21,455 nt of DNA from a virus. The notes beneath the pieces are model-generated. The model ran no database searches, was not told where the DNA came from, and saw only the letters and a program-made list of their open reading frames with translations. Positions within the stretch are counted from its first letter, which is position 1, and every line of letters starts with the position of its first letter. Where the stretch lies: positions 1-21,455 of IMG/VR virus record IMGVR_UViG_3300031236_000572. One strand, written 5' to 3'. Both the position numbers and the translations under genes were made by a program. Below, one piece after another: positions 511 through 17,232 of the stretch.

Positions 511-1200
511 ATGCTCGTTTCCGACATCTGCAATTACGCGCTGATTCACATCGGCGCGTATTCGCCGGGCGAGACCCCGAACACGAACGATCAGGCCATC
601 GCCCTTTTTTGGGCGAACCTGACGCTCGATTCGCTGTCCGCGAAAAAGCTGTCTCCGCTCGGCCTGCTGGCCGCGACGTATGCCCTTACCGGGGCGTCGT
701 CGTATACCTACGGGCCGGGCGAGACATGGAACGGCGCGCGCCCGATGAAGATCAAGAGCGCGTCCGTGATCGCCGCGAATGGCACGCAAAAGAGCGTCAG
801 GATCGCTTCGGCCGAAGAGTACCGCGCCGTGGCGGATCTTACTCGTACCGGCATTTTCGTCGAGGACCTGCTATGGGACCAGGGTTATCCCACCGGCAAC
901 GTGTATGTCACGCCGATGCCCGCGGCGGGCAACATGCTGCTGGAGACCTACCAGCAGATTTTGAATTTCGTCAACCCGACGGACACGATAAACCTGGCGC
1001 CCGGCTATCCCGAGTGCGTCGTCACGCTCGTGGCGCTCAAGTTGTGCAACCCCTTCGGCCGCCCGATCCCGCCCGGCCTGGCAGAGGAAGCCGCGGACGC
1101 GCTCATGACCATCACGGGCCTGCAAGCCGAGATTCTCGGCAGCTCCCCGCCCGTGGGGCCGCAGTTGCCGATGGCGCCGCCGCCGGGAGCGAAAACGTAG
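511..1200 (+). CDS. putative head-tail connector / tail-completion protein, copy 1 (229 aa)
   Basis: The layout matches a family common in podovirus-like genomes, at the position of P22 gp4 or the Bordetella phage Bbp13 type. It has an N-terminal helical part (residues 1-55), then 'ARPMKIKSASVI' (about 77-88), 'EEYRAVADL', 'DQGYPTGNVYVTPMP' (about 126-140), an extended strand, and a helical C-terminus beginning near 'LAPGYPECVVTLVALKL'. A Pro-rich tail ends the protein. The inferred role is sealing or connecting the DNA-filled head to the tail. No SD precedes ATG 511, so translation may be coupled to the gene upstream. The following gene looks like a diverged paralogue. Confidence 0.65.
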   Translation: MLVSDICNYALIHIGAYSPGETPNTNDQAIALFWANLTLDSLSAKKLSPLGLLAATYALTGASSYTYGPGETWNGARPMKIKSASVIAANGTQKSVRIASAEEYRAVADLTRTGIFVEDLLWDQGYPTGNVYVTPMPAAGNMLLETYQQILNFVNPTDTINLAPGYPECVVTLVALKLCNPFGRPIPPGLAEEAADALMTITGLQAEILGSSPPVGPQLPMAPPPGAKT

Positions 1201-1204
1201 CGCG

Positions 1205-2044
1205 ATGGCTCCCAACCTTCCGGTGCCATATACCGGCGTCTGGCTCGTGAGCGACCTGCTGTACCGCGCGCTGCGCGCGTCGAACGTGGTCAAGCGCGCG
1301 CAGGGCGTCCCCAGCTCGTCGCAATACCAGGAAGCGCTGGCGCTGCTCAACCAGATGGTCGATGAGAAGGCCGCGCGCCGGCCGTTTCAGTGGACGACGA
1401 CGTTCAATCTCTACACGTTGACGCCCAACCACCAGCCGCACCTGCTGGGGCCGGGCCTGGCCGCTCCGGACTTCGCCATCGCGTCGCGCCCCGTGCGGAT
1501 CGAGAGCGCCAACCTGGTCTTGACCGGGCTCGGCGCGCCCAACCCAGCGCCGAATCCGCCGTCCACGCCTGCGGGCGCGGTGAACACGAACGTCGATCTG
1601 CAGCTCAACATCCGCGATAGCGCGTGGTGGGCGGCAAACAGCGTGAAGGGCATCGCCACGAATGTGCCGACAGATCTCTATCCGGAATACGACTGGGACT
1701 CGCTGGCGCTGTGGCTTTGGCCGATCCCATCGTATGCCTACGGCCTGCGCCTCGAATTCTGGGTGGGGCTTACTCAGTTTCAAGAAATCGCGAACAAGTT
1801 TTCCGCGCCGCCCGCCTGGTTCAACTTCTACGCCTACACGCTCGCGGTGGCGCTCGTGGGCGCCTACGAGTTGCCAATGCCGGCCACGCTGCCGAGCCTG
1901 CTGCGCGAAGCCACCAAAGCCGTGCAAACCAACACCATCAAGAGCAGGCGGATCGCGAGCGCGGACTGGGGCACGCGCGGCGGCAGCGGATCGAACGCCG
2001 ACTTTAACTATATGAGCGGCGGGCCGCCCAGTTGGTCTCCATGA
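1205..2044 (+). CDS. putative head-tail connector / tail-completion protein, copy 2 (279 aa)
   Basis: It has the same landmark order as its left neighbour: 'ALALLNQMVDEKAAR' near the N-terminus, 'SRPVRIESANLVL' mid-protein, 'TDLYPEYDWDSLALWLWPIP', 'GLRLEFWVGL', then a C-terminal helical segment ending in 'TIKSRRI'. A Pro/Ala-rich insert (about residues 105-120) is not in copy 1. Function is inferred from pattern and position just before the gp10-like gene. ATG 1205 lies 5 nt after the previous stop and has no good SD (a GGGAG is about 14 nt away). The stop overlaps the next ATG as ATGA, which suggests coupled translation. Confidence 0.65.
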   Translation: MAPNLPVPYTGVWLVSDLLYRALRASNVVKRAQGVPSSSQYQEALALLNQMVDEKAARRPFQWTTTFNLYTLTPNHQPHLLGPGLAAPDFAIASRPVRIESANLVLTGLGAPNPAPNPPSTPAGAVNTNVDLQLNIRDSAWWAANSVKGIATNVPTDLYPEYDWDSLALWLWPIPSYAYGLRLEFWVGLTQFQEIANKFSAPPAWFNFYAYTLAVALVGAYELPMPATLPSLLREATKAVQTNTIKSRRIASADWGTRGGSGSNADFNYMSGGPPSWSP

Positions 2045-3759
2045 AATTCGACGCGTTCACGGCCGGCGGCAGCTTCACCCTAGCGTCCGTTTCCGCCGCT
2101 TCCGAATTGGCGATGAACTATTACGCCGATCCGATCCAGGGCGTGGCAAATGCGGAAAAGGGGCCGATGGCCCTTGTGCGCACGCCCGGCATCTCGCTGT
2201 TCACCACGCTGCCGCAAGGCCCCACGCGCGGCCTATGGCCCGGCCAGAACCGGCTCTTTGCTGCGGGCGGCTCGCACCTCTACGAGGTGCTTGCAAACGG
2301 CATGACGGTAGATAACGGCTACATCGGCAACGATGGCCTGCCCGTGCAGATCCTCTCGAATGGCAGCCAGCTTTACATCGTCTCCGACGGCCTCGCGTGG
2401 ATCGACGCGGGCGTGTCCGAGGCGGGCGGCGCAGGGCCTCCGCCACCGCCGAGCGGCGCGGTCCCCATCTTCCAATCCATATTGCTTTTCGACCTGTCGA
2501 TCGACGCGGGCACCGGCGGCCTCACCGGCGCGACCGGCGGTATTTTCGACTCGACCGACGTGGGCGAAACCATTTGCATCACGTCGGGCGCGGGCTTCAC
2601 CGTGCAGTGCCAGATCGTCACCAGCGTGGTGAGCGGCCAGGCATTCGGCGCGAGCGGCTGGGGCACTGGCGGATCGACAGGCGGCGAAGGCATCGAGTGG
2701 CTGTACGTGGAGGGCCAGCTCGCGGCGAACCAGGGCGCGTTCCTGGACGGCTATTTTTTCGCCAGCGCGTACAACTCGAACAAAGTCTACTTCTCTGCCA
2801 TCGACGATGGCACGATGTGGAATCCGCTCGACTATTTCATCAAGGCCAGCTATCCGGACAACGTGGCGGCGCTCGCGGGCGATCACCAGGAGTTATACGT
2901 GTTCGGCGACCTGGAATCGAGCCAGGTGTTTCAGGATACGGGCGACGCCAACAGCCCTTTCCAGCCAAATCCGGGCGCGATTATGCACTTCGGATGCGTC
3001 GCGCCGTTCTCCGTGACGCGGCTCGGCCAAGGGCTTGCGTGGCTGGGCGGCGACGTGCGCCGCGGCGACCGCTTCGCGTTTCTGGCCGTCGGCTTCCAGC
3101 CCGAAAAAATCTCGACCGCTGCGGAAGAAATCGCGTGGGGGGCCTATTCGACCATCGAAGACGCCATTTCCTATAGCGAGATCTACAACGGCCACGAGTT
3201 CTGGGTCGTGCACTTTCCCTCGGGCAACGCGACGTGGGCTTACGATCTCACCACGGGAATCTGGGCGCAGCGCGGCTGGTGGACGGGCGCTTTCGATGCG
3301 AACGGCTTTCCGGTGTGGGCGCGCCAGCGGCAGAGCTTTCATGCCGTCGTTTCGCTCGGCAACACGCTCACCGAAAAGCACTACGTCGGCGACTGGCAAA
3401 ACGGCCAGATTTACATTCAGTCCGCCGCGTACCTGACCGACAACGGCACCACGATTTACAGGCAGCGATCGTGCCCGCACTTGACCCAAGAAAACCTGCG
3501 CACGTTCTACCACCGCTTCGAGATCGACTGCGATGTGACTGGCCTCATGCGAGTGTTTTGGAATCTGCTGGGCTATGGCCGCGACCGGATCTGGAGCGTG
3601 GTCGCGTGGCAACCCACGGGCCAGGGCGTGTCACTGCAACTCTGGTTTTCGGACACCCGCGCCCAGACGTGGCAAAGCAAGCCCGCGCAAACGCTGGCGT
3701 CTACCGTGGACGTTACGCTCGCGAATGCCTATTTGATGCTCACTCCGGGGAGTAGCTAA
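2041..3759 (+). CDS. P22 gp10-like packaged-DNA stabilisation / tail hub protein (572 aa)
   Basis: It resembles P22 gp10, the hub protein that closes the portal channel after packaging. Visible features are an N-terminal 'MNYYADPIQG' strand and 'VRTPGISLFTTLP' (gp10 has a similar SFPGI segment). Mid-protein it has 'HQELYVFGDLESSQVFQDTG', then 'VAPFSVTRLGQGLAWLGGD', 'AISYSEIYNGHEFWVVHFP' and 'WAYDLTTGIWAQRGWW', which read as beta-propeller blades. A Gly/Pro-rich insertion (about residues 132-220) interrupts the early part. ATG 2041 is preferred over an in-frame TTG at 2032 because it forms an ATGA overlap with the previous stop. The P22 family is usually about 470 aa, so this copy is longer. 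Confidence 0.75.
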   Translation: MKFDAFTAGGSFTLASVSAASELAMNYYADPIQGVANAEKGPMALVRTPGISLFTTLPQGPTRGLWPGQNRLFAAGGSHLYEVLANGMTVDNGYIGNDGLPVQILSNGSQLYIVSDGLAWIDAGVSEAGGAGPPPPPSGAVPIFQSILLFDLSIDAGTGGLTGATGGIFDSTDVGETICITSGAGFTVQCQIVTSVVSGQAFGASGWGTGGSTGGEGIEWLYVEGQLAANQGAFLDGYFFASAYNSNKVYFSAIDDGTMWNPLDYFIKASYPDNVAALAGDHQELYVFGDLESSQVFQDTGDANSPFQPNPGAIMHFGCVAPFSVTRLGQGLAWLGGDVRRGDRFAFLAVGFQPEKISTAAEEIAWGAYSTIEDAISYSEIYNGHEFWVVHFPSGNATWAYDLTTGIWAQRGWWTGAFDANGFPVWARQRQSFHAVVSLGNTLTEKHYVGDWQNGQIYIQSAAYLTDNGTTIYRQRSCPHLTQENLRTFYHRFEIDCDVTGLMRVFWNLLGYGRDRIWSVVAWQPTGQGVSLQLWFSDTRAQTWQSKPAQTLASTVDVTLANAYLMLTPGSS

Positions 3760-5172: not shown

Positions 5173-5176
5173 CTCA

Positions 5177-6268
5177 ATGCCCATCGCCTTTCCGACAGTG
5201 CAGGCAGCAACGGCGGCCGGGCCGTGGACCTCCGCGCCGAACGTCGCGTTCCCCTCGCCGGTGAGCTACCAAAACATTATTCTGGCGGCGTGGGGCAACA
5301 CGGGAGTTAACGCGGGCGCGGGCGACGTCCCGCCCACCACCGTGACTGACTCGCTCGGCAACGATTATGAGCTGTGGGGCCAGTCGAACTGGATCTACGC
5401 GAACGAAGAGGCAGTCAGCCAGATCTGGGTGGCGCAGGGCAACGGCACCACGAAATACGGGGGCATCAAGGGCGGCGCGTGCACTGTGACGTTCAACGGG
5501 GCGATAGGCGGCGCGGCGGGCGGCCCCTCGCTGATCGTGTGTGAAAAAGAAGTCCCGGATTTCTACCAGATCTTCGGCCAGATGATGGTCGATACGTTCA
5601 ACCCGCACGCTTATTTTCGCGCCCTGGCCAACAATGGCTCGCCCGGCGGCGGCAGCTCGTCGGACACCGGAACGCAGTCGATCGTCTGCACTCCTAACGG
5701 CGCTATCGAAGAAGAAACGAACGACAACGTGTGCTCGCTGATCCTGATGGATCAGTTTCTCAGCGTCACGCAGGTGCTCGTGAATTTTAACGACGATTTT
5801 CCGCTGAATAGCGGACCCTGGACCAGCTCCGGACGCACCATCGGCCAGACGCTGCAGCCGCCGAACACCGAGCATAGCGGCGTGGCGTCCGACGCGTCGC
5901 TCATCATGACCGATGACGACTTTCCGTATCTCGGCGGCCCGCTCGTTGCGTCGTGCGGCAACCCGCCCAACGGACAGATCGGCGTGGCCTACGGCCCGAT
6001 GGGCGCGGGCTACTCGCTGATCGCGGACGGCGGCACGGCACCCTACACCTGGGCCATTGTGGGCGGCGCGCTTCCGCCCGGTCTGGCGCTCGCCCCTTCC
6101 GGAGCCGATGCCGGCCTGATAAGCGGCACGCCGACTGCCGCGGGCAAGTTTCTGTTCACCGCGACGGTCACCGACTCGGTGGGGGCGACGGCGACCATCA
6201 CCTGCTCTATCGCGATTTGCTCCGCGGGGAGCGCGGGCAGCGCGGGCGCCTACGCGTGGACGGGATGA
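5177..6268 (+). CDS. beta-rich protein with C-terminal putative-Ig (He_PIG-type) domain (363 aa)
   Basis: Residues 1-150 repeat the landmarks of the upstream gene ('NIILAAWGN', 'VTDSLGNDYELWG', 'PSLIVCEKEV'). Residues about 256-348 have the hallmark He_PIG pattern: 'DGGTAPYTWAIVGGALPPGL', then 'GLISGTPTAAGKFLFTATV' and 'TDSVGAT'. Such Ig-like domains mediate adhesion or act as spacers on surface proteins. Together this suggests a virion decoration or receptor-contact protein. It begins 5 nt after the previous stop with no SD, and its stop overlaps the next start (ATGA). Relative to its neighbour it looks like an ancestral domain plus an acquired Ig-like tail. Confidence 0.7.
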   Translation: MPIAFPTVQAATAAGPWTSAPNVAFPSPVSYQNIILAAWGNTGVNAGAGDVPPTTVTDSLGNDYELWGQSNWIYANEEAVSQIWVAQGNGTTKYGGIKGGACTVTFNGAIGGAAGGPSLIVCEKEVPDFYQIFGQMMVDTFNPHAYFRALANNGSPGGGSSSDTGTQSIVCTPNGAIEEETNDNVCSLILMDQFLSVTQVLVNFNDDFPLNSGPWTSSGRTIGQTLQPPNTEHSGVASDASLIMTDDDFPYLGGPLVASCGNPPNGQIGVAYGPMGAGYSLIADGGTAPYTWAIVGGALPPGLALAPSGADAGLISGTPTAAGKFLFTATVTDSVGATATITCSIAICSAGSAGSAGAYAWTG

Positions 6269-6741
6269 CGTTCGAGCGCACCACGGACTATGGGCTTGTC
6301 CGGCAGATCCTCGCGGACCCCGGCATTTACGCCCGCATGGGCGACGACTTTGCGCCTCCCATCGCGGAATTTGTCGTTAACGAGCATCCGGCGATCTGGT
6401 ACGTGCTGGTTTATCCATCCGCAGGCGATTTAGTCTCCGGACTGTTTTGCTTCTTCCCAGAGAACGGCGTTTGCTGGGCAGGGCACGTTGCGTTCCTGCG
6501 CAAAACGCCGCCCGCGATCACGCTCGCCGCGGGCCGCGCGATGGTGCCCTGGCTGTGGGCTAACACGCCATGTGTGCGGCTGGTGGCCTCGATCCCGGCC
6601 TATAACCGCGCGGCGATCCGCTTCGCGCGGCGCGCGATGGGCCTAGCGGCGCACGGACGCAACAAAGCCAGCTTTATGAAACGCGGAACACTGCACGATC
6701 AGGTGCTTCTCGGCATTTCGAAGCCTTCCCCTCAACGCTGA
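6265..6741 (+). CDS. GNAT-fold protein at the P22 gp14 position (158 aa)
   Basis: It fits the short GNAT-like family to which P22 gp14 (head assembly) has been assigned. The signature 'SIPAYNRAAIRFARRAMGL' followed by 'GRNKASFMKRGTLHDQVLLG' is clear at about residues 110-150, and 'VCWAGHVAFL' forms the central strand. Classical GNAT acyltransferases bind acetyl-CoA; whether these phage members are enzymes or only structural is not known to me. ATG 6265 gives an ATGA overlap with the previous stop and fits the family N-terminus. An upstream extension in the same frame, inside the previous gene, is unlikely to be used. Confidence 0.75.
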   Translation: MTFERTTDYGLVRQILADPGIYARMGDDFAPPIAEFVVNEHPAIWYVLVYPSAGDLVSGLFCFFPENGVCWAGHVAFLRKTPPAITLAAGRAMVPWLWANTPCVRLVASIPAYNRAAIRFARRAMGLAAHGRNKASFMKRGTLHDQVLLGISKPSPQR

Positions 6742-6809
6742 CTGACTGACAACGCAGGTAAATCCGCTATGACTCTCCGCACCCAATTCTCCGCACAACG
6801 AGGCACCCA

Positions 6810-7676
6810 CTGGCCAGTATAGTCACAGGAATTATCGGGGGCATTCAGGGCGCCTCAGCCAGCCACAACGCCGCAAACACGCTCTCCGCTGGCTATGGGC
6901 AGGCGGGAAACACCGTCACTACCGCCGCGAACACCCAGTCTCCGCTCATCACCAATCAGGCGGCCGCCGGCGCGGGCCAGGTCAACACGGCGGCGGGCAA
7001 CGCGGTCGCCGGCCTCGCCCCGTACACGGGCGCGGGCGCGCAGGCGGCTGCGGGCCTCAACGGCGCGGCGAATTATACGCCATTCAACGCGTCGATGATG
7101 GAGTCGCAGGACCCCGGCTATGAGTTTGCCCAGCAGCAGGGCCAGCAGGCGCTGCAGCGGCAGCAGGCGGCCAGCGGCGTGGCGGGCGGCGGCGCGGCAA
7201 AGGCGATGGACCAGTACAGCCAAAACCTGGGGACTCAGCAATACCAGCAGGCGTTCAACAACTACACCACCCAGCATCAGAACACCTTCCAGAACCTTGC
7301 GAGCGTGGCGGGCATGGGCCAGCAGGCGAGCGAGTTCGGCGGGCAGTTGCAGACCGGCGCGAGCGAGTTCGGCGCGAATCTGCAACAAAATGCCCAGGAT
7401 CTCAGCAGCCAGACGCAGATGGGCGCCGCAAACTACCTTGCCAATAGTCAGATAGGCGGGGCTAATGCAATTGCGCAAGGCACTTTAGGCGCCGCGAACT
7501 CCTGGAATGGAATGCTCGGAAGCATCGGCAACGCAGGAAACTCCATCGCAATGATGGGCATGGGCGGATTCCTCCCGGGGCAGCAAAATTTTGGCGGCGG
7601 CGGGGGGAACGTGGACTGGTCGCAGTCTCCGGGATCGGGCAGCTATAACACGAGCACCGGGCAGTTCGGACCGTAA
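6810..7676 (+). CDS. gp7-position ejection / DNA-transfer protein, probable CTG start (288 aa)
   Basis: The protein is rich in Gln, Ala, Gly and Asn. Its core pattern is 'DPGYEFAQQQGQQALQRQQA', then 'GGGAAKAMDQYSQNLGTQQY', then 'NLASVAGMGQQA'. This is the pattern of podovirus DNA-transfer proteins ejected with the genome. The first ATG codons in frame (7095, 7098) would remove about 95 conserved-looking residues. The frame is open from 6762 and has no ATG, GTG or TTG before 7095. CTG 6810 gives (M)ASIVTGIIGGIQGASASHN, typical of the family N-terminus, with CGAGG 6 nt upstream. An indel joining it to ATG 6769 is the alternative. Confidence 0.7.
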   Translation: MASIVTGIIGGIQGASASHNAANTLSAGYGQAGNTVTTAANTQSPLITNQAAAGAGQVNTAAGNAVAGLAPYTGAGAQAAAGLNGAANYTPFNASMMESQDPGYEFAQQQGQQALQRQQAASGVAGGGAAKAMDQYSQNLGTQQYQQAFNNYTTQHQNTFQNLASVAGMGQQASEFGGQLQTGASEFGANLQQNAQDLSSQTQMGAANYLANSQIGGANAIAQGTLGAANSWNGMLGSIGNAGNSIAMMGMGGFLPGQQNFGGGGGNVDWSQSPGSGSYNTSTGQFGP

Positions 7677-7684
7677 AGGAAAAT

Positions 7685-8110
7685 ATGAAAACACTCAAAC
7701 GGATTTTCTGCGGCCTCGCGGCCGCGTTGTCACTCGCGGCCAGCCAGCCGATCCAACTGACTACCGTGCTCACCCTGAGCGCCACGGGCATTACCACGCA
7801 ACAGAGCGTGCCCGGCCTCTACGTGGCGTGGGCGGGCAGCACGTTCGCGCAAGGCGTGCAGGCGATCCCCACCACGTCGGGCGGCACGGCGCTCAACATC
7901 TCGAACCTGCCCAACGTGGGCTACTGCACGTTTCAGAACCTCGACCCGGCAAACTATGTGCAGATTTTGACGGCTGTGAGCGGCACGGTCTTCGCGCGCC
8001 TGGTGGCGGGCGACTCGCACCTGTTCCGCTTCGACCCCAGCGTGACCGCGCCCGCGATGATCGCACACACCGCTACGGTCTCGATTCAATATCTCTGCCT
8101 CTCGAACTGA
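7685..8110 (+). CDS. small exported beta-rich protein with signal peptide (141 aa)
   Basis: The N-terminus has basic residues (MKTLKRIF), a hydrophobic stretch (CGLAAALSLAA) and a polar turn at residues 20-22, a standard Sec signal peptide layout. The mature part is beta-rich with two Cys ('GYCTFQN', 'QYLCLSN'). Its SD is good: TAAAGGAAAAT includes the previous stop codon. It lies between two ejection-type genes, an odd site for an exported protein. Function is unknown; an envelope-targeted accessory protein or a periplasm-matured virion part are both possible. Confidence 0.65.
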   Translation: MKTLKRIFCGLAAALSLAASQPIQLTTVLTLSATGITTQQSVPGLYVAWAGSTFAQGVQAIPTTSGGTALNISNLPNVGYCTFQNLDPANYVQILTAVSGTVFARLVAGDSHLFRFDPSVTAPAMIAHTATVSIQYLCLSN

Positions 8111-8124
8111 CTCAGTGACTCGCC

Positions 8125-9888
8125 ATGTTTGCCCCTCCGCCCCAATACGCGTCCGCGCCCATCGCCACCGCCATCACGCCGCCTAACTATGGCGACCCCA
8201 CGGAAGTTGCGCGCGCGCTGTCCACGATGCGCGCGCAGGGCGCGCAGACGCAGGGGCAGCAGCTGCAGAACCAGATTGCGCAGCAGCAGCTCCGCGACCA
8301 GCAGCTCGTGCAGCAATATTTTGCGCAGCGCGGCGCTCAGACCGCGAATCCGAACGCCGCCGGCGCGGGCGGAGCGATGCCAGGACCCAGTGGCCCCGGC
8401 ACAAACAACCCCACCCTCGCGCCTAACGGACAGCCATATCCGGTGCTGCCGGGCGGCCTGATCGATCGCACGGGGACGCCGGCGCCGCCGGCACAGGGCG
8501 CACCTCCCGCGCAGTCTCCGATGGCGCCGCTCGCCGGCCAGCCCGCGGCAGTGACAGCCATGCAGCAACGGCCCGCGGCCCTCCCCGGCGCCGGCCAGAA
8601 TCCCATCGTGGGCATGGACCTGGGCGAGCTCGCGCGCAACGGCGTTTCCGGCGGCATGCTGCAGTCGCTCGCCGGATCGCAGCTCAAGTACGCGGCCGAT
8701 TATCAGAACCTCACCAAGGGCGCCCAGGAGATCAAAGACAAAAATAACGCGTACGCGGCCAGCGCACTGAAGGGTCTGTATTATTCCGATCCGGAGACTT
8801 GGGCGCAAAATTACGCCGGCGTGCGCGACGCGGTGCGCAAGCTGGCCCCGGACGATCCGGCCACGATGCCCGACCAGCTCCCCGCAAATCCCGCGCAGGC
8901 GAAAAACCTGCTCGCGATGCATATGGGATTTCTCGACGCGCACGAATCGATCGTGGCCAGCGCGAAGAGCGCGGCCGAAACGGAAAAGGCACTGAACGAA
9001 TCGGCTAACGCGGCGGCCGAGACGCCGGGCAAGGAAGCGCAGTCCCGTATCCTGCAAAACCAGGCCGGCGCAATCGACGCGTGGCGCCAAGGACTGAGCG
9101 CCGGCAACGACGCGGGGCCGGCCATGATCCAGCGGGCGATCGCCTTCAACCCGCAGGCCGCGCAAGGGTTCCTCGATCGCTACAACGTCGCCATGCACAA
9201 CGGCGACTATAAGGCGTCGCAGGACGTGCTCACCGAAGCCACGAAGTACGGCGTCGAGAACAACCCGACGACCAGGGCGCAAGCCGCCACGCAAGCGGCC
9301 ACCGTCGCCGGCCAGGAAGCCGCGGCGCGGGCTCCCAGCGAGATTCACGTCGCCGGCGCCAACGCCGCGACGCAAAACGCGTTAGAACAGCAGCGCACCG
9401 CGCGCGGCAAGGATTACGACGCGGGCCAGGATTACGCAAGTACCATGGGCCTCGTGAATTCGGCACTCGCGGCCGTGCAACAGGCGCGCGCCGGCGGCGG
9501 GGTGCAAAGCGAAGCTGCGCAGGCGTTGATCCCCGCGGCCACACTGGCGCTCGCCGGCATCAAGCGGCTGCCCGCGGTGGCAGGCGAAATCGGAAAGGGG
9601 GGAATGCAAGACCGGGCAATCAGCGCTCTGGATAATGCTTTCCACAATCGGCCGACCGACGAAAACGCGCTGAACGAGGCCGAGCAGTGGCTCAAGACCC
9701 TCGGAAATAATGCGGCGGACACGAAAAACGGCACGGCGGACAGCCTCAAACGGGCATTCCCCGGCCAGCGCGTGGAGCGCATCGACCGGCCCTTCCCGCA
9801 GACGGCGACCGGACCCAACGGGCACAAAATCGTCTCGACAGATGGCAAAACCTGGAAAGACGCTAAGACCGGAGCGCCTGTCCAATGA
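8125..9888 (+). CDS. gp20-position ejection protein (587 aa)
   Basis: Residues about 28-70 are a Gln-rich coiled coil (QQLQNQIAQQQLRDQQLVQQ). A Pro/Gly/Ala-rich linker follows to about 150, then long helices with Ala/Gln/Asn bias to about 540 and a short C-terminal beta segment ('GPNGHKIVSTDGKTWKDA'). This composition fits podovirus ejection proteins, and the position matches P22 gp20. No catalytic motif was found. The 3' end overlaps the next ATG (ATGA at 9885-9888). No SD precedes ATG 8125. Confidence 0.6.
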   Translation: MFAPPPQYASAPIATAITPPNYGDPTEVARALSTMRAQGAQTQGQQLQNQIAQQQLRDQQLVQQYFAQRGAQTANPNAAGAGGAMPGPSGPGTNNPTLAPNGQPYPVLPGGLIDRTGTPAPPAQGAPPAQSPMAPLAGQPAAVTAMQQRPAALPGAGQNPIVGMDLGELARNGVSGGMLQSLAGSQLKYAADYQNLTKGAQEIKDKNNAYAASALKGLYYSDPETWAQNYAGVRDAVRKLAPDDPATMPDQLPANPAQAKNLLAMHMGFLDAHESIVASAKSAAETEKALNESANAAAETPGKEAQSRILQNQAGAIDAWRQGLSAGNDAGPAMIQRAIAFNPQAAQGFLDRYNVAMHNGDYKASQDVLTEATKYGVENNPTTRAQAATQAATVAGQEAAARAPSEIHVAGANAATQNALEQQRTARGKDYDAGQDYASTMGLVNSALAAVQQARAGGGVQSEAAQALIPAATLALAGIKRLPAVAGEIGKGGMQDRAISALDNAFHNRPTDENALNEAEQWLKTLGNNAADTKNGTADSLKRAFPGQRVERIDRPFPQTATGPNGHKIVSTDGKTWKDAKTGAPVQ

Positions 9889-11426
9889 GCCCCGCGCTGC
9901 CGGCCGGCTATAAGCTCGATCCCTTCCCCTCCATGCCGGATGCCGCATCGGGGCTGCCCGCCGGTTACAAACTCGACGCCGGCTCGGTGGGCGCGCCGCC
10001 GGCGGGCGCGCCGCCGGCAGCGAAGCCGCCCACGATGCTCGAAACGCTCGGCAACGTCGCCAAGGTAGCCATGACCGGCGACAAGACCGCGTCGGATCGC
10101 ATCCAGCAGAGCACGATGTGGAACGACTTAGGCGGCAAGGGCCTAAGCAATTTTCTCAAGGTCGCGTTTACCGGCGACCAGGACGCTGCGGACCAGGTTA
10201 CGCAGAGTGTCAAGGGCGTCGTCAACGGCCTCAGGGGCGAGCCTGCGCGCGTCTGGTCGCAACTGTCCGCCTCCGGCCAGGCGATGCTCGCCGGCCAGCT
10301 CGCCGATGCGACGTACCACCTAGCGGGATCGGTCCCGCTCGTTGGCGCCGGCGCGCAGGTAGTGGCCGACGCCGCGGCTAAGGGCAACTGGGACGAAGCC
10401 GCGCAGCACGCCGCGATGCTACTGCTGCCGTTCGCCCTCGGTGGCGCAGGCAACGTGGACGCGGCCGGAGAGATGGCGGCCAACGCCGTCGACGCCGTGC
10501 CCAGCGCGGCCAAGGCCACAGCCGCGGGACTGAAGGCGGCCGCCCCGGATGCGGCCAAGGGCCTCGCGAAGATCGGGGCGGGGCAGGTAATCGGGCACAT
10601 GACCGGCATGGAATGGCCCATGCGCCTCGCTATGACCTGGCCCGGCATCGGCGACGTGAAGGCGGCATGGAAAACGGGAATGGAGGCAGGCAAATCCGCC
10701 ATCGCTCCGGCCGAAGAGGCGGCGGAAGCCGCGCCAGCGGGCGTGCCCGCGACCGGCCCGGTAAACGTAGCGCTCCCCGCGCAGGATTTGCCCGCTGTCC
10801 CGCCCCCCGCGCCTCCCGCTGGCCCGGTGCCGACCAACCGGCCCCTAGCGGCGTCCGGCACAGCGATCCCCGCCGGTGTGCAGCCGACCTACACCCCGCC
10901 GGCCGGACGCGTCGCGCCGGGCTATAGCGCACCCGCGCCCGCCGTCAACGGCGCGCTGCCGGGCGAGCCTCCGGAAGTCACGGCTATGCGCCAGCGCATG
11001 CAGCCCGCGGCGAACGAAACGCCCGAACCTCCGGCCGAAGATATGCAACTGCTCGACGACATCGCGCGCGGCATGGCCGGCCAGCCGTTTGCAAAGCTCA
11101 ACGCGGAGCGCCAGGCCGCCGTGCGCAACATCGCGGCGCGGATGAACCCCACGCCGTCCTCTCGCGTCTCGCGCACAATAGAGCCATCCGGCCCGCCTCC
11201 GCCGCAACTCGCTCCAGCGGCCAGCCAGGCGCCAGAAGCCGCCCCCATAGGCGAAGAGCCGAAGATTATATCGATGAAAAACCTGAAGCAGGAAGCCGCG
11301 AACTCCGGGCGGCCTGTAGACGAGGTGGTCAACCAGTATCGCCAGGAAGGCTGGCGCATCGAGTACGACCCGTTTTACAACACGTTGCGCAACCGGCGCG
11401 GCAAGCTCGCGCCCACGGCGCAATAA
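9885..11426 (+). CDS. gp16-position ejection protein with LPAGYKLD repeats (513 aa)
   Basis: The N-terminus carries two copies of LPAGYKLD (residues 5-12 and 24-31), close to the LPPGF-LD repeats of large phage ejection proteins. Residues about 130-190 are hydrophobic and Ala/Gly-rich ('LVGAGAQVVADAAAKG', 'AAMLLLPFALGGAGN'), suited to membrane insertion during DNA ejection. A long Pro/Ala linker (about 285-365) leads to a charged C-terminal domain ('KNLKQEAANSGRPVDEVVNQ'). The start overlaps the previous stop (ATGA), with a GGAG about 10 nt upstream. The role is inferred from composition and order; no lytic transglycosylase motif was found. Confidence 0.6.
   Translation: MSPALPAGYKLDPFPSMPDAASGLPAGYKLDAGSVGAPPAGAPPAAKPPTMLETLGNVAKVAMTGDKTASDRIQQSTMWNDLGGKGLSNFLKVAFTGDQDAADQVTQSVKGVVNGLRGEPARVWSQLSASGQAMLAGQLADATYHLAGSVPLVGAGAQVVADAAAKGNWDEAAQHAAMLLLPFALGGAGNVDAAGEMAANAVDAVPSAAKATAAGLKAAAPDAAKGLAKIGAGQVIGHMTGMEWPMRLAMTWPGIGDVKAAWKTGMEAGKSAIAPAEEAAEAAPAGVPATGPVNVALPAQDLPAVPPPAPPAGPVPTNRPLAASGTAIPAGVQPTYTPPAGRVAPGYSAPAPAVNGALPGEPPEVTAMRQRMQPAANETPEPPAEDMQLLDDIARGMAGQPFAKLNAERQAAVRNIAARMNPTPSSRVSRTIEPSGPPPPQLAPAASQAPEAAPIGEEPKIISMKNLKQEAANSGRPVDEVVNQYRQEGWRIEYDPFYNTLRNRRGKLAPTAQ
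9989..10018 (+). repeat. 15-bp tandem duplication (2 copies)
   Basis: GGGCGCGCCGCCGGC occurs twice without a gap and encodes GAPPA-GAPPA in the linker after the LPAGYKLD repeats of the gp16-position protein. It is probably a slippage product in low-complexity DNA. Confidence 0.7.
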
Positions 11427-11436
11427 AGGAAAATTC

Positions 11437-11787
11437 GTGATCCAACAGACAGTCACTCTCGTAACCGTGGCCGCCGCAGGCACGCCCGTGCAGCCCTACG
11501 TGCGCGCGAAGTTCGGCGCGCCGCAAATGTGCTGCGGCATTTTCATCCAGGCCGTGCCCGGCAACACCGGCAACGTGCTGGTCAAGAATCAGCAGGGCGT
11601 TACCATCGCATGGCTCGCGCCAGGCGGCGGCAACAACGCGGCGGGGAATCCGCTCCCCGGCGGCATGTACTCGTGGCCGCCGTTCGCGGGCGCATCGCTC
11701 GGCAATCCCATCGACGCCACACAATATCAGATCGACGTTGAGGTCTCGGGCGAGAAGGCTAACTTCGTTATCGGCGTCGCGATTTGA
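11437..11787 (+). CDS. small conserved-looking phage protein (116 aa, GTG start)
   Basis: Mostly beta-strand protein with no signal peptide. It contains 'GNVLVKNQQGVTIAWLAPGG' and 'ATQYQIDVEVSGEKANFVIG', which suggest a compact beta-sandwich like phage decoration or fibre-base proteins. No family is recognised. The GTG start has a strong SD in TAAAGGAAAATTC, whose TAA is the previous stop. The same TAAAGGAAAAT junction precedes the gene at 7685. It sits between the ejection genes and the exported set. Confidence 0.6.
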   Translation: MIQQTVTLVTVAAAGTPVQPYVRAKFGAPQMCCGIFIQAVPGNTGNVLVKNQQGVTIAWLAPGGGNNAAGNPLPGGMYSWPPFAGASLGNPIDATQYQIDVEVSGEKANFVIGVAI

Positions 11788-11803
11788 CACTCGGCTCACT
11801 CAC

Positions 11804-12628
11804 ATGCTAACTTCACCTCGTCCCACCCCGCGCGGGCGGAAACACGCCTGGAGCCTGTACAGGTTCCTGGTATTTTTCGCTGCCTGCGCCATCCAAGCCC
11901 AAACTGTCGTCAACCCCGCGCCTCCCGGCGGCAGCGGCGGCCCGGCGAGCGTCACCGGCACGCCCAACCAGATCGTTTGCTCCCCCACCACCGGCAACGT
12001 GATCTGCGGCTACGCCAGCCCCGCGACCTTCGCGGGCAACCTCGGCGCGCTCGGCACCATGAGCGTGGGCGCGTCCGGCACGGCGGGCAGCGTGGGCTGG
12101 TACGACCAGGGCGGCACAAATCAGACAATCTGGTCCGATGCTACGAGCGGCTACAACGGCACGTGGTATTGGCCCACCACGGCGGGCACAAGCGGACAAA
12201 TCTTTTGTCTCGGCGCGGCGGGCCAGACGAGCTGGTGCGCAGCGCCCGTCTCTCCCACGACAAACCAAAACATCCGCACCGTCGGCGCAACGCTCACGCC
12301 CACCGCGCTCACGGGCTGCATTTACGTAGCCTACGCGGGCACGGTCACCGGCTTTCATGCGGTCGCGACGGACGGCCTCACTGTAGTCACTGCGCTGGTC
12401 AAAGTCGCCACACAGCCCACGTTCGCGACGTTCGTTTCGGGCGGCGCGGCGGGCGCGAGCGATATCAGCAACGGCGGCGAGCAACTGACTTCGACGCTCG
12501 GCCTGGCGGACACGACTCTGACGAGCTGGTCGAAGACCGTCGCTGCGGGCACGACGTTCTGTTTCGTCGCGTCCACGTTTTCGGCGGGCGCAACCGTGAA
12601 CGCAAACATCAACATCGCGGCAAACTGA
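11804..12628 (+). CDS. exported fibre-like protein with signal peptide (274 aa)
   Basis: ATG 11804 is chosen because it puts a basic stretch (PRGRKHAWSLYR) before the hydrophobic core FLVFFAACAIQAQ, a Sec signal peptide. Cleavage after AIQA is likely; FAAC is a weak lipobox-like alternative. The mature part has Gly/Thr/Ser-rich repeats like phage tail-fibre shafts ('GALGTMSVGASGTAGSVGWY'). It ends in a beta-domain ('LTSWSKTVAAGTTFCFVAS') like fibre or collar tips. Several Cys are present. The protein may recognise a surface glycan or protein. Its stop is 1 nt before the next ATG. Confidence 0.65.
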   Translation: MLTSPRPTPRGRKHAWSLYRFLVFFAACAIQAQTVVNPAPPGGSGGPASVTGTPNQIVCSPTTGNVICGYASPATFAGNLGALGTMSVGASGTAGSVGWYDQGGTNQTIWSDATSGYNGTWYWPTTAGTSGQIFCLGAAGQTSWCAAPVSPTTNQNIRTVGATLTPTALTGCIYVAYAGTVTGFHAVATDGLTVVTALVKVATQPTFATFVSGGAAGASDISNGGEQLTSTLGLADTTLTSWSKTVAAGTTFCFVASTFSAGATVNANINIAAN

Positions 12629-12629
12629 C

Positions 12630-14228
12630 ATGAGAAAACTTCTAGCTCTACTCTTGCTCTCCGCGCTCCCGGCGCTTTGCGCGCTGCCCTACCAGATGCA
12701 GTGGCGCGTGGCGTCCACCGGCAGCGACTCGAACAACAGCGGCGGCTTCTACGCGCTGGGCACATCCTGCGGGACGGACTACTCGCTGCAAAACAGCCCG
12801 CAAATCTCTTACACCGACCTCGTGGTCGGCGTGACCACCACCACCTACACCAGCGTGCTCCACGCGGTCGCCAGCGCCGTGACATGCAACACGCTGCACG
12901 TCGTGAGTGGCACTGGCTGCACCACGGGCACGTTCTATATTTCGGCGGAAACTGGCGGGTCGCCCAACTTCGCCACGGTGGACCGCTCGCTCGGCACCGC
13001 GGCGAGCGTCTGCACAGCATACCTGGGCGGCGCGTTCGCGTCTATCGCGCAGGCCATGAGCGTCAACAGCGGCGCGCTCGATACGATCTGGATCAAGACG
13101 AGCACAACGACGCTCACGAGCTCGCTGGGCAACTGCGTGAGCCAGGGCAGTTGCTCGAACTCGACTAATGCAATCCGAAGCATCACGCTGTCCGGATACA
13201 ACACGACCCCCGGAGATGTGACGGTCGCCTGCATCGCGGCGTCCACCTGCACGCGCCCACTCATCACGACGAGCACCAGCAGCGTGGAACTGTTTCAACT
13301 CGTGGGGTCCATCATTACGGCATCTTTCACGATCCAAAACCTCGAGATCTCAAACACGGCGTCTTCGAGTGCGTACCCAATTATCGCGGGAATCAACGGT
13401 GGCCCGAACCTCTACCTCTACAACACCAAAATCGACGTTACCGGCACGAACTCGGGCGGCGCGTCCGGCATTTACAACGACAATGAATTTTCGTTTATCG
13501 TGATCTACGCATCCGAGTTCAACGTGGCCACCGGAAATTCCGGAGTGGCGGATCAAGAGGAATCGCAATCGAACAATGGCCACGGAATCTGGTCGTATTA
13601 TTCGTACTACCACGGCGCCGGGACAGCGTTCTACGACGTGGACAATGGCGGCCTCCAACTCTGGCACTGGATCGGCAATGTGTGCTCAGGCATGTCGCGC
13701 TGCCTCTACGCCGCAGAGACCGGAGACAACAGCGTCTCGCTCATCGAACTCGTGGGGAACGCCTTTTACAACCCGGCGAACGAGGCGGTGAGATACAACA
13801 GCTTCGCCCTCGGATTCCTCTCCAACATCAACAATATCTATTATGGCGGCACGTATGGCCTGTACATCAACGGCTACATCGCGGATGGCTCCAGCGTGCC
13901 CTTCGGCATTCCTTTCAGCCAGTCGAACGCCTACGGCGGACAGAGCACCGCGCCGTACCTGCCCTACACTTTTGGAGGCAACCGTTCCGGCGTCCTGACC
14001 GGCACGCCCCCCGGCTACGGATCGAGTGACATTACGCTCGGAGCCTGCAATCCGTTCAATAATCCAGGCAGTGGAGATTTTTCGCTGTCTACTTGCGGAA
14101 AGACCGCGCTCGCACAGGCGGGCTACCCCGGCGTGAGCCTTTTCGGCAGCGGCTACGCGGCAATAGGCGCGCTCCCCGCGCAGGGCGGCGGCACGTCCGG
14201 CGGCGGCGCGAGTCCCTATGTCCAGTAG
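12630..14228 (+). CDS. exported right-handed beta-helix protein (532 aa)
   Basis: MRKLLALLLLSALPALCA is a clear signal peptide. The next segment ('ASTGSDSNNSGGFYA', 'GTDYSLQNSP', 'GGAFASIAQAM', 'DTIWIKTST') matches the N-terminal region of pectate-lyase-like parallel beta-helix proteins often found in phage structural regions. Residues about 180-480 show repeating short strands and turns as in a beta-helix. About 14 Cys, several as close pairs, suggest disulfides in an oxidising compartment. Tailspike-type beta-helices often bind or cut polysaccharide; no catalytic residues can be assigned here. It overlaps the next gene by 11 nt. Confidence 0.65.
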   Translation: MRKLLALLLLSALPALCALPYQMQWRVASTGSDSNNSGGFYALGTSCGTDYSLQNSPQISYTDLVVGVTTTTYTSVLHAVASAVTCNTLHVVSGTGCTTGTFYISAETGGSPNFATVDRSLGTAASVCTAYLGGAFASIAQAMSVNSGALDTIWIKTSTTTLTSSLGNCVSQGSCSNSTNAIRSITLSGYNTTPGDVTVACIAASTCTRPLITTSTSSVELFQLVGSIITASFTIQNLEISNTASSSAYPIIAGINGGPNLYLYNTKIDVTGTNSGGASGIYNDNEFSFIVIYASEFNVATGNSGVADQEESQSNNGHGIWSYYSYYHGAGTAFYDVDNGGLQLWHWIGNVCSGMSRCLYAAETGDNSVSLIELVGNAFYNPANEAVRYNSFALGFLSNINNIYYGGTYGLYINGYIADGSSVPFGIPFSQSNAYGGQSTAPYLPYTFGGNRSGVLTGTPPGYGSSDITLGACNPFNNPGSGDFSLSTCGKTALAQAGYPGVSLFGSGYAAIGALPAQGGGTSGGGASPYVQ

Positions 14229-15618
14229 GCTCGCCATTCTCGCGCTCATCGCACTGCGCGCGTTCGCGCAGCCAGGCGTGTGCACGGTGTTTCCGCTGGT
14301 GACCACGGGCTGCGCGGCGGCCGTCGCGCCCGTCACAGGCACGCCCACCTTCCCGGCGTACATCACGGACGTCAACACCGCGGTGACCGCGATCCAGGCG
14401 AGCTATGCGAGCCTGCCGCAACCGCTCACTGCAAGCGGCGGCCAGCTGGTCGGCACGGCGTCGAGCTTTGTCAACGCGGGCGCGCCGTTTAACAGCACGT
14501 CGAAAGAGATTGCGTACATGCAGCTCATCGCGTTGACGGGCGCGACATACGTCGATCTCAACTGGGATCCAATCCAGTTCGCGCAGTCGCCGTACTACGC
14601 CGCGATCTGCGCGCTCTCGGGCGGCACCTGCGTGTCCGGAGGCGGCACGGGCACGAATTACAATCTCTACCGCTCGCTGGCCAGCGCGGCACAAACGGCG
14701 GGCCTCGGGCTGCGCATCGCGTGGGGACCGCTCTCGAACACGTGGAGCAACTGTCCCAACATCTCAAATCCCGCGACGGCCACCGCCGCGCAAATCGCGT
14801 CGTGCCTCGGCCCGCTCGAAGCGGCTGCGGCGACTGACTTTTCGCACCTCTCGCCCGCGGTGGCCATCGTCGACGAGACAGTGAGTCACGAGCCTACGGG
14901 CTTCTGGTCGCTCACGCTCGGCACGCTGAGCGCGGCGAACTGGAACGTGCAAAACACCGCGCTGTGCGGCTGGGTGACAGGCCAGACCGCGGGCGCGGCG
15001 ATCAAATGCGGCACGGGCTTTTTGTCGAGTGACACGGCGTATGTGAGTTCGACGATCGCCAACGAGAGCGGGGTAATAAACTACCTCGGCTTCGATATTT
15101 ATTTCGGCAAGACGCCTGGCTCGTGGGCATCGCCGATTTTTTCGAATTACATGAGCTTTTGCGAGGCGGCTGTCGCGGGCGGCTTCGGCTGCAAGGTGAA
15201 CGAGTTCGCCGTCATCCGCTGGTGTCCCAGCGGCGGCACAAACTGCAACGAGAGCGACGCGTATCTCTCCTGCGGCGACTCGATTTTCGATTCGACCCGC
15301 GTCAACAGCGCGGTCATGACGGCAGTCGCTCACGGCATGGCGGCGGCGGGCGCGTCGTACGTGACCATGTTTTCGACGCAGCCGTGGATCTTGTTTTCGA
15401 CGCCCGCGCTCAACACCGCGAGTCAGTGCGAAGACACCAGCTCGACCGGATACACCGCGTACATTCTCGACAATCTGCCCGCGTCGCTCACCAGCACGGG
15501 CGCGGCGTGGGAAAGCGCAATCGCGCGCGGCAATGTCAGCGCGCAGGGATTCGTCAGCTTTAGTGGAAAAATCGTTTTCGGCGCGGCGATCCAGCTCGCG
15601 ACGCTACCGGCGCGATGA
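14218..15618 (+). CDS. exported glycoside-hydrolase-like protein (466 aa)
   Basis: MSSRLAILALIALRAFA is a signal peptide. The body resembles a TIM-barrel hydrolase: 'GATYVDLNWDP', 'LGLRIAWGPL', 'AIVDETVSHEPTG' with E225, 'NYLGFDIYFGK', and 'KVNEFAVIRW' with E329. The two Glu are about 104 residues apart, as acid/base and nucleophile often are in clan GH-A, but the usual N-E-P is H-E-P here. Function is therefore a hypothesis: an enzyme acting on host surface sugar. Cys-rich, consistent with export. The last 15 residues lie in a stretch shared with the next gene, and a -1 shift there would extend it to 15641. Confidence 0.55.
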   Translation: MSSRLAILALIALRAFAQPGVCTVFPLVTTGCAAAVAPVTGTPTFPAYITDVNTAVTAIQASYASLPQPLTASGGQLVGTASSFVNAGAPFNSTSKEIAYMQLIALTGATYVDLNWDPIQFAQSPYYAAICALSGGTCVSGGGTGTNYNLYRSLASAAQTAGLGLRIAWGPLSNTWSNCPNISNPATATAAQIASCLGPLEAAAATDFSHLSPAVAIVDETVSHEPTGFWSLTLGTLSAANWNVQNTALCGWVTGQTAGAAIKCGTGFLSSDTAYVSSTIANESGVINYLGFDIYFGKTPGSWASPIFSNYMSFCEAAVAGGFGCKVNEFAVIRWCPSGGTNCNESDAYLSCGDSIFDSTRVNSAVMTAVAHGMAAAGASYVTMFSTQPWILFSTPALNTASQCEDTSSTGYTAYILDNLPASLTSTGAAWESAIARGNVSAQGFVSFSGKIVFGAAIQLATLPAR

Positions 15619-15628
15619 CGGTTACGAT
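15573..15628 (+). repeat. repeat pair A-B at the 3' end of the hydrolase-like gene
   Basis: Segment A (15573-15600, 28 bp) is identical to 15886-15913. Segment B (15607-15628, 22 bp) is identical to 15843-15864. Here the order is A then B; in the downstream gene it is B then A. Segment A is read in the same frame in both genes (VFGAAIQLA). Segment B is read in different frames and supplies the stop of the hydrolase-like gene. Confidence 0.85.
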
Positions 15629-15637
15629 CAAACTTCA

Positions 15638-16039
15638 ATGAGAAAAATACTGTTCGCTCTTTTGTTTGCGGCCGCCGCCGCGCGCGCGGCCAGCATCACC
15701 GGCACGCTGCAATACAACTTCACGAGCACGGTCGCGTGCTCCTCGACCGTGACCGCCAACTGCGCCGTGAGCTTCGAAGTCGGATGGATGAACGGCGCGG
15801 TGTTCGTGCCGATCGGCAGCGTGCCGCTGCCGGCGGCGCCCGCCGGCGCGATGACGGTTACGATTCCCGCCGTCGCGTTCAACGGCGTTTTCGGCGCGGC
15901 GATCCAGCTCGCGGCCGGCGTCAATGCGCTCGACTGGCAGGGCCACGCGCTCGCGCCCCTTACTTTTTTTTTAGCGCCGGGCACGTCGGCTGCCGGCCCG
16001 GCCCCCGTAACCGGCTTCGCACCCTCTGTGGGCCCGTAA
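15638..16039 (+). CDS. small exported beta-rich protein with signal peptide (133 aa)
   Basis: ATG 15638 gives MRKILFALLFAAAAARA, a textbook Sec signal peptide with AxA cleavage after ARA. The mature part is beta-rich with two Cys ('VACSSTVTANC') and a Pro/Gly-rich end. It shares VFGAAIQLA with the C-terminus of the preceding gene. There is no SD. A longer frame reading back from 15533 would bury the signal peptide, so it is rejected. Unknown function; it looks like a companion of the other exported proteins. Confidence 0.65.
   Translation: MRKILFALLFAAAAARAASITGTLQYNFTSTVACSSTVTANCAVSFEVGWMNGAVFVPIGSVPLPAAPAGAMTVTIPAVAFNGVFGAAIQLAAGVNALDWQGHALAPLTFFLAPGTSAAGPAPVTGFAPSVGP
15843..15913 (+). 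repeat. repeat pair B-A inside the small exported gene
   Basis: This is the second copy of both segments, in swapped order: B at 15843-15864 and A at 15886-15913, coding for PAGAMTVTI and VFGAAIQLA in one continuous frame. The intact frame here suggests this may be the donor copy. Confidence 0.8.
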
Positions 16040-16040
16040 A

Positions 16041-16319
16041 ATGATGGCTTGGCTGCACACACACCAGGAGGCTCTTGGCCTGCTCGGCCTGGCGCTCATC
16101 GCCACCATGCCGGCGACCAGGCCGGCCACGATCCGCGAGCTGCCCGGCTGGCTGTACGACTGGGCCCGCCTTTGGCTCCAGGCGTTCATTTCGTTCCGCG
16201 CGCCGCGGACACCTGCGGCCGCGGATCCGCCCAAGCCGTCCGGGCCCGCCGACGTGCTCGACGCGGGCAAGGCGTTTGCGGACGCGCTGCGCGCCGCGCA
16301 GGCCGAGGCGAAAAAGTGA
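16041..16319 (+). CDS. small membrane protein, possible holin-like (92 aa)
   Basis: Residues about 10-28 (EALGLLGLALIATMP) form one likely membrane helix. A second amphipathic or membrane segment is 'WLYDWARLWLQAFISF', followed by a charged, Pro-rich soluble tail. Similar short proteins with an N-terminal helix and 'P-P--~YdW~~d~~~~F' are found near phage lysis genes. No endolysin is next to it in the window, so a holin role is only suggested. The start could be ATG 16041 or 16044. It is the last gene of the late block; the opposing operon ends 33 nt further on. Confidence 0.6.
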   Translation: MMAWLHTHQEALGLLGLALIATMPATRPATIRELPGWLYDWARLWLQAFISFRAPRTPAAADPPKPSGPADVLDAGKAFADALRAAQAEAKK

Positions 16320-16351: not shown

Positions 16352-16489
16352 TCACATCCGCAGGCCAATCAACGCGGCTGCGAGCAGCCAGATCGCGATA
16401 CACGCGAGCACCAGCAGCGCCGCCGCGCGCTTGCCCCACACGGTGGCCACCGCCCATAACGCGATGCCCACCAGGGCGAGGGCCGTCAT
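16352..16489 (-). CDS. two-helix membrane microprotein (45 aa)
   Basis: Sequence begins MTALALVGIALWAVATVWGK and continues with a second hydrophobic segment (LLVLACIAIWLLAAALIG), separated by a short basic turn. Its ATG overlaps the stop of the gene before it (ATGA at 16489-16486), which strongly supports coupled translation. Two-helix hairpins of this size in phages can be holins, superinfection-exclusion or other membrane-active proteins; the sequence alone cannot decide. It ends the left - strand operon. Confidence 0.65.
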   Translation of the reverse strand: MTALALVGIALWAVATVWGKRAAALLVLACIAIWLLAAALIGLRM

Positions 16490-17232
16490 CGCGCGCCTCG
16501 CCGCGTCTCGATAAACGCGCTGGTGACCAGGCAGCGCACGCTCTCCGGGCTGACTTCCTCGCCGTGTTCCTCGCGCGACCAGGCGAGCACGTCGGCGTAG
16601 ACGCCGATCAACTCCTTGGCGAGCGCGTTAGTGATCTGCAGCCAGGATTCGCCGCGCCCGTTGCGCGCGGTATGATCGTCGCTGGCGAACCGCGCTGGCG
16701 TAGCGGCCGGCGTGGCCACTGGGGCGGCGACTGATGTGCTCTGAGCATCTGAGGCGGTGAGATACAACATCTTCGCTCCGGGATTCCCCGCCGCCCGTTT
16801 CCTCTTGCGCTCCGCGATTTCCGCCTTGATCCGCTCAACCTCCACCGACATACGGATCTCGTACTCGAGATCCGTCTCAGCTGGCGCCGCCGGCGCGTGC
16901 GGCGATGCCGGCACGGCGTAGGTGCCGTCGCGCTGCGCGCCGTATGCGGGCGCGGCACCTGCTGGCAGCGACACGTAATACACGCGCGCGTTGCCCGAGC
17001 AGCGCAGGGTCAAGTCAAATTCCTGGCCAGGCCGGAGGCCCGCCTCGGTGATGGCGCGCGCCTCATCGAGCGTCAGAAACATCACTCGATTGTCGGAAGT
17101 GGTGAAGAGCGCGTACTCGCCGCTCTTGCCCATCCCGATTTTCGGCTGAGCGTATTTGAGAGCCAAGCGTACCGGGACGTTTGGCTCGAATTGCACCTTC
17201 TCGCGTTGTACCGTCGTACCGTTCGTATACAT
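16486..17232 (-). CDS. unknown phage/plasmid-type protein (248 aa; a 281-aa form possible)
   Basis: No family is recognised. The N-terminal half is beta-rich and compact ('VPVRLALKYAQPKIGMGKSG', 'EYALFTTSDNRVMFLTLDEA', 'LRPGQEFDLTLR', 'ARVYYVSLPAG'), possibly an OB-like fold. It is followed by a Pro/Ala linker, a charged coiled coil ('EIRMSVEVERIKAEIAERKR') and a C-terminal helical domain ('NALAKELIGVYADVLAWSRE'). ATG 17232 has an ideal SD (AAGGAG, 7-nt spacer). ATG 17331, in the same frame, has GGAGGTG and lies 1 nt after the previous stop, so two start sites are credible. A nucleic-acid-binding role is only a guess. Confidence 0.7.
   Translation of the reverse strand: MYTNGTTVQREKVQFEPNVPVRLALKYAQPKIGMGKSGEYALFTTSDNRVMFLTLDEARAITEAGLRPGQEFDLTLRCSGNARVYYVSLPAGAAPAYGAQRDGTYAVPASPHAPAAPAETDLEYEIRMSVEVERIKAEIAERKRKRAAGNPGAKMLYLTASDAQSTSVAAPVATPAATPARFASDDHTARNGRGESWLQITNALAKELIGVYADVLAWSREEHGEEVSPESVRCLVTSAFIETRRGAR

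Follow-up and report, generated by a model that had tools for sequence, protein, structure and literature searches.

To our knowledge, tailed-phage virions are taken as built wholly in the cytoplasm. Why, then, would a block of phage late genes encode several proteins with Sec signal peptides? The question is raised by a linear fragment of viral DNA of 21,455 bases, the complete IMG/VR record IMGVR_UViG_3300031236_000572, hereafter the window. A sequence-only reading had noticed five such genes, starting at positions 7685, 11804, 12630, 14218 and 15638, and had offered three roles for their products: secreted matrix-degrading proteins, surface proteins altering the infected cell, or virion adhesins matured in the periplasm. 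The third option fits best. We put at roughly 0.6 the probability that outer parts of the virion leave the cytoplasm through Sec, gain disulfide bonds in the periplasm and meet the particles at lysis.

The window contains the late block of a P22-like podophage, about half of its genome. The gene order is gp4-like neck proteins, head closure protein Hc3, gp14-like protein, DNA ejection protein, two large Cys-free internal proteins, then tail and lysis genes. Podoviruses of this type (P22, Rhodoferax phage P26218, Xanthomonas phage PBR31) have the late gene order in common with the present group, as well as coat, portal, Hc3, ejection proteins and the tailspike head-binding domain. Hc3 is matched by 48 phage records, the best at about 30-35% identity. 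A nearly identical contig (L003/L004), whose Hc3 protein is 100% identical, overlaps the window and adds terminase, portal, scaffold, a P22-type coat and one further gene that ends at window base 1. Along most of its length the coat shares 23-28% identity with annotated P22 coat proteins, and the portal is assigned from size and position only. A Hc3/gp10-type head closure protein, P22-type coat and portal (L004) and DNA ejection proteins, all of which mark a P22-like late operon, are thus present.

Genome contigs were scanned for relatives with the coat alignment as query. Many viral contigs from soil encode close relatives of the coat, and so do three Acidobacteriota genomes, namely two MAGs and the isolate Acidicapsa dinghuensis 4GSKX, in its chromosome; the host of the virus is thus most likely an acidobacterium.

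The late operon comprises the following features.

511..1200, plus strand: putative gp4-like neck protein (phrog_12985, of unknown function, E 1e-24; gp4-like from its position before Hc3)
2041..3759, plus strand: head closure protein Hc3, P22 gp10-like, without signal peptide (phrog_578, E 1.7e-57)
6265..6741, plus strand: gp14-like head morphogenesis protein, without signal peptide (phrog_651, E 8e-4)
6809..7676, plus strand: DNA ejection protein, without signal peptide or Cys (phrog_598, E 4.5e-6)
7685..7744, plus strand: signal peptide of the 7685 protein, MKTLKRIFCGLAAALSLAAS followed by Q (score 11.3)
7745..8110, plus strand: mature 7685 protein, small, adjoining the ejection genes, 2 Cys (conserved in the G002 orthologue, which has a signal peptide)
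8125..9888, plus strand: putative internal or ejection protein, without signal peptide or Cys (from its position between ejection protein and tail genes)
9885..11426, plus strand: putative internal or ejection protein, without signal peptide or Cys (from position)
11437..11787, plus strand: small protein without signal peptide (the equivalent position in G004, G005 and G009 holds a signal-peptide protein; weak homology, E 0.1)
11804..11899, plus strand: signal peptide of the 11804 protein (score 11.1; kept in the G002 homologue)
11900..12628, plus strand: mature 11804 protein, fibre-like, 6 Cys (G004:8533, in the corresponding place, has a signal peptide and then GTVTSIVAGTGLSGG)
12630..12683, plus strand: signal peptide of the 12630 protein, MRKLLALLLLSALPALCA followed by L (score 11.1; diverged signal peptides in relatives)
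12684..14228, plus strand: mature 12630 protein, probable beta-helix spike or depolymerase, 12 Cys (beta-helix judged by eye)
14218..14268, plus strand: signal peptide of the 14218 protein, MSSRLAILALIALRAFA followed by Q (score 11.4)
14269..15618, plus strand: mature 14218 protein, 14 Cys (searches gave no relatives)
15638..15688, plus strand: signal peptide of the 15638 protein, MRKILFALLFAAAAARA followed by A (score 12.6)
15689..16039, plus strand: mature 15638 protein, 2 Cys (searches gave no relatives)
16041..16319, plus strand: putative holin (hydrophobic N-terminal segment and position; no profile match)

ORF lists shorten the ejection gene (6809-7676) to the ATG at 7095, but its coding region reaches further 5'. 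A 300-aa homologue from G002 aligns by tblastn from 6809, and the start is probably a non-ATG codon upstream of 7095. The assignment as ejection protein has E 4.5e-6 for the window protein and E 4.4e-7 for the G002 homologue. A frameshift truncation of the 7095 gene was rejected, since the upstream homology stays in frame.

All five signal peptides are found at the starts claimed for them, with n-, h- and c-regions: a charged n-region, a hydrophobic h-region and small residues at -3/-1. Our scorer is a custom rule set, not SignalP. Among the plus-strand late genes exactly these five pass, with scores of 11.1-12.6; five textbook E. coli signal peptides reach 9.6-12.6 on the same scale. On the minus strand a hydrophobic ORF of 45 aa (16352-16489) also passes and looks like a membrane peptide. 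The predicted cleavage sites (marked by a slash) are LAAS/QPIQ for 7685, AIQA/QTVV for 11804, ALCA/LPYQ for 12630, RAFA/QPGV for 14218 and AARA/ASIT for 15638. The mature parts contain 2, 6, 12, 14 and 2 Cys in the same order, all even numbers, in keeping with the several or paired Cys noticed earlier.

Chance occurrence was rejected on the basis of two kinds of control. Only 4 of 305 internal pseudo-starts passed, none above 8.55, and the five window signal peptides outscore all 305; in seven contigs, 4 of 477 internal Met exceeded the 9.5 cut-off. When residues 2-40 were shuffled, the observed score was reached in 26, 3, 5, 221 and 10 of 2000 trials for 7685, 11804, 12630, 14218 and 15638, respectively. 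The signal peptide of 14218, whose N-terminus is Ala/Leu-rich, is therefore the weakest of the five.

Searches of Pfam, NCBIfam and PHROG, and PDB sequence searches, gave no match to the signal-peptide proteins of the window; the probable beta-helix of 12630 matches neither a profile nor a PDB entry. When viral contigs were scanned with single sequences, no relatives of the 7685, 15638 and 12630 proteins appeared, and a search of a phage collection gave no match for 12630, 14218 or 7685. Relatives that keep both the signal peptide and the phage context exist for 7685, 11804, 12630 and a sixth protein described below; for 14218 and 15638 we found no relatives.

In the 7685 family, the window and G002 have the signal peptide, and the orthologues in G004, G005, G008 and G009 start with M at the mature end. 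Both Cys are kept in the G002 protein and replaced by A and L in the orthologues that lack a signal peptide. The 12630 family is divided in the same manner: seven members (L014, L130, L131, L132, L134, L140, L144) carry diverged signal peptides, and four (L133, L136, L139, L141) begin with MA.. at the domain. Several members of this beta-helix family outside the window have odd Cys counts. The small protein at 11437 was not counted as a proven case of signal-peptide gain relative to G004:8130, which bears one, because the equivalence is positional only (E 0.1).

The sixth signal-peptide protein of the same virus lies outside the window (L004:8897-9907), directly after the coat gene, and is the gene that ends at window base 1. 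Members of this post-coat family from viral contigs have a signal peptide in 37 of 39 readable loci. The two others are a contig-edge fragment (L072) and a distant protein with no coat match nearby (L079). Identities of the adjoining coat genes span 25 to 100%. When 29 members are aligned, the signal peptides are 28% identical, versus 52% for the mature N-domain; their core hydropathy stays at 2.2-3.5, and the predicted cleavage site has A, G or S at -1 and Gln at +1 in 29/29. Such divergence in sequence with a kept cleavage geometry is the pattern expected from selection for a cleavable signal peptide. Cys161 is present in 29/29 members and Cys133 in 28/29. A homologue in G212, also placed after the coat, has neither signal peptide nor Cys and starts exactly at the mature end; the gene with the head-binding domain in G212 lacks a signal peptide as well.

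An AlphaFold2 model of the post-coat protein (pLDDT 76) shows weak similarity to a capsid chain of cyanophage A4 (9jwb_Z; E 2.6e-4, TMt 0.46) and resembles an Anabaena phage A-4L protein in BFVD (TMt 0.56). These cyanophage capsid proteins are possibly decoration or head-fibre proteins, and their gene also follows that of the coat; the post-coat protein differs from them by its signal peptide and two conserved Cys. Position and weak fold similarity suggest that it could be a capsid decoration protein. A tail role is possible too, since its N-domain is similar to modules found in phage tail proteins.

The closest link between signal peptide and virion comes from the tailspikes of relatives. The tail gene that follows Hc3 in L081 and L082 begins with a signal peptide, and a head-binding domain comes immediately behind it; L082 is the chromosomal prophage of A. 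dinghuensis 4GSKX, a cultured isolate, and has both post-coat and tailspike signal-peptide genes. A scan for the domain gave 32 loci, and it lies at the mature N-terminus in L081, L082 and L097-L118. Its sequence matches, over the domain, are to the PDB entry 7eeq, titled 'Tailspike head-binding domain', with E 8e-7, and to the tail spike chains of 9vyg with E 8e-6. From 5 rows, AlphaFold2 gave a low-quality model of it (pLDDT 57). For the PBR31 tailspike, the N-terminal part is described as apparently the virion-binding domain (PMC10975493). In PBR31 and four other phages the same domain starts no more than a few residues into a tail protein that has no signal peptide. A tblastn search for the domain gave no match in the window, nor in its five signal-peptide proteins; the best proof of a signal peptide on a virion-attachment domain comes from relatives. 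On L117 (5567-7664), three tandem tailspike-gene starts with the same head-binding domain are spaced 494 bases apart, the last one long, and are possibly recombination cassettes.

In contrast to 7eeq and 9vyg, the domains of the first set that follow a signal peptide carry a Cys pair, GGC[VI][FY]TY plus NC[AS]SG in a short insertion, with a variant form in L115. In this set of 35 distinct domains the pair is present in 20/20 with a signal peptide and in 0/15 without (Fisher 3e-10 if independent; a tree suggests few transitions of signal peptide and Cys, so that the 35 amount to far fewer independent data points, and one of the two search patterns, GGCVFTY, contains the first Cys and favours Cys-bearing matches). 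Two Acidobacteriota genomes found later, L149 (L149:1474-2421) and L150, have domains with a signal peptide and no Cys pair, possibly an intermediate or an independent gain. The Cys pair is thus seen only with a signal peptide, but signal peptides also occur where the pair is absent.

In bacteria, exported proteins tend to have an even number of Cys, according to PMC7678975, which refers to E. coli work. With the 825 proteins of these contigs grouped at 60% identity, even and odd mature counts are 34:4 for signal-peptide proteins and 85:118 for the others (Fisher 2.7e-8). Clustering without an identity limit gives 16:1 versus 44:76, and an earlier, smaller set gave 34:4 versus 67:92. Some proteins without signal peptide also have even counts. 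The products of 4471 and 5177, which lack signal peptides, have 5 and 7 Cys. These two genes form a unit (window 4471-6268; also L037:12494-14215) that lies on the plus strand in the window and G002, and similar-looking genes lie on the minus strand in G003, G004, G005 and G008. The 5177 protein carries a He_PIG Ig-like domain (E 3.3e-11). A DNA-invertase-type serine recombinase (phrog_125) is encoded at window 20351-20968, and a search for an invertible cassette around 4471 and 5177 found no convincing flanking inverted repeats.

None of the coat, portal, scaffold, neck and ejection proteins has a signal peptide, and the ejection proteins are Cys-free. In the P22-like podoviruses of other hosts that were covered, the outer parts lack signal peptides, unlike here: we found none in 38 late proteins of five phages, genes after the coats included, nor in the five tail proteins with the head-binding domain.

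Because the same protein exists with and without a signal peptide (7685, 12630, post-coat), we regard these as phage virion-type proteins to which signal peptides were added or from which they were lost. The precise fusion of a signal peptide to the tailspike head-binding domain in relatives, and the position of the most conserved signal-peptide protein after the coat, argue for virion adhesins matured in the periplasm. Signal-peptide features and their conservation, fusion to a virion-attachment domain and pairing of Cys are all established at the level of sequence. Export is well supported; that export and cleavage actually take place, that these proteins are present in the virion, and where and when they assemble outside the cytoplasm is what we infer.

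The following scheme would account for the data. Cleavable Sec signal peptides would be present on the outermost virion parts, namely the post-coat protein (possibly capsid-decorating), tailspikes, fibres and small neck-side proteins, and on none of the coat, portal, scaffold, neck and ejection proteins. In the late phase the proteins that bear them would cross the inner membrane, signal peptidase I would cut before the mature N-terminus, often Gln, and disulfides would form in the periplasm. Lysis would then mix the two compartments and the DNA-filled particles would be completed. In vitro, tailless P22 heads that are already complete are known to take up tailspikes, which makes late attachment of spikes physically plausible. 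We give about even odds to the detailed version of this two-compartment route, with DNA-filled heads and necks made in the cytoplasm, exported and disulfide-bonded decoration proteins and tailspikes attached only at lysis, and several gains or losses of the signal peptide precisely at the N-terminus of these proteins.

The signal-peptide proteins may instead be exported and not be virion parts, acting as secreted or periplasmic enzymes or adhesins released during infection or lysis, for matrix polysaccharide degradation or as decoys. The products of 12630 and 14218 may be free matrix-degrading enzymes, in line with the first option of the sequence-only reading: no virion-attachment domain was recognised in either. 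The 12630 protein resembles a beta-helix depolymerase, and the lack of phage relatives for 14218 and 15638 points the same way. As a general account this is unlikely, since in relatives the signal peptide precedes a conserved tailspike head-binding domain, the post-coat gene adjoins the coat and has a homologue without signal peptide in the same position, and members of the 12630 and 7685 families without signal peptide also sit in phages. For surface proteins altering the infected cell we found no support.

Less probable still is that the virion pool is not exported, either because fast folding or inefficient targeting leaves a cytoplasmic fraction or because the hydrophobic helix anchors the protein in a membrane or in the virion. 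Cytoplasmic assembly is the norm for virion proteins, and 7685, 12630, the post-coat protein and the spikes with a head-binding domain all have orthologues that lack signal peptides and evidently work unexported. Against this, the cleavage geometry with Gln at +1 is conserved while the signal-peptide sequences diverge, paired Cys go with the signal peptide, and the helix sequence itself bears no sign of selection; the cleavage-site pattern in particular disfavours a virion anchor. Capture of host secreted-protein genes as morons or receptor-binding modules, with their signal peptides retained, would agree with the resemblance to ordinary Gram-negative signal peptides and with the absence of phage relatives for 14218 and 15638, but is very improbable given that at least two domains of clear phage origin (head-binding and post-coat) have been joined to signal peptides, and that nearly all members of the post-coat family keep theirs.

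Inovirus coat proteins are likewise phage structural proteins with Sec signal peptides; inoviruses assemble at the membrane and are extruded through the envelope. The present virus differs in that a tailed dsDNA phage packages its DNA into a coat without signal peptide. In the open-access literature covered, we found no report of signal peptides on tailed-phage appendages. If the reading is right, Sec-exported tailspikes and capsid-surface proteins imply a different order of assembly, in which the periplasm is used for oxidative folding of virion parts and receptor-binding enzymes are perhaps kept off the virion until lysis.

Two repeats were observed in passing. In G005 (L032-L035), a record of 63.6 kb, a gene set is repeated at a spacing of about 43.3 kb with diverged copies, and represents either two related tandem prophages or a chimeric assembly. 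In the window, 37 bases of the 12630 gene (13782-13818) have a direct match of 89% identity after the lysis genes (16751-16787).
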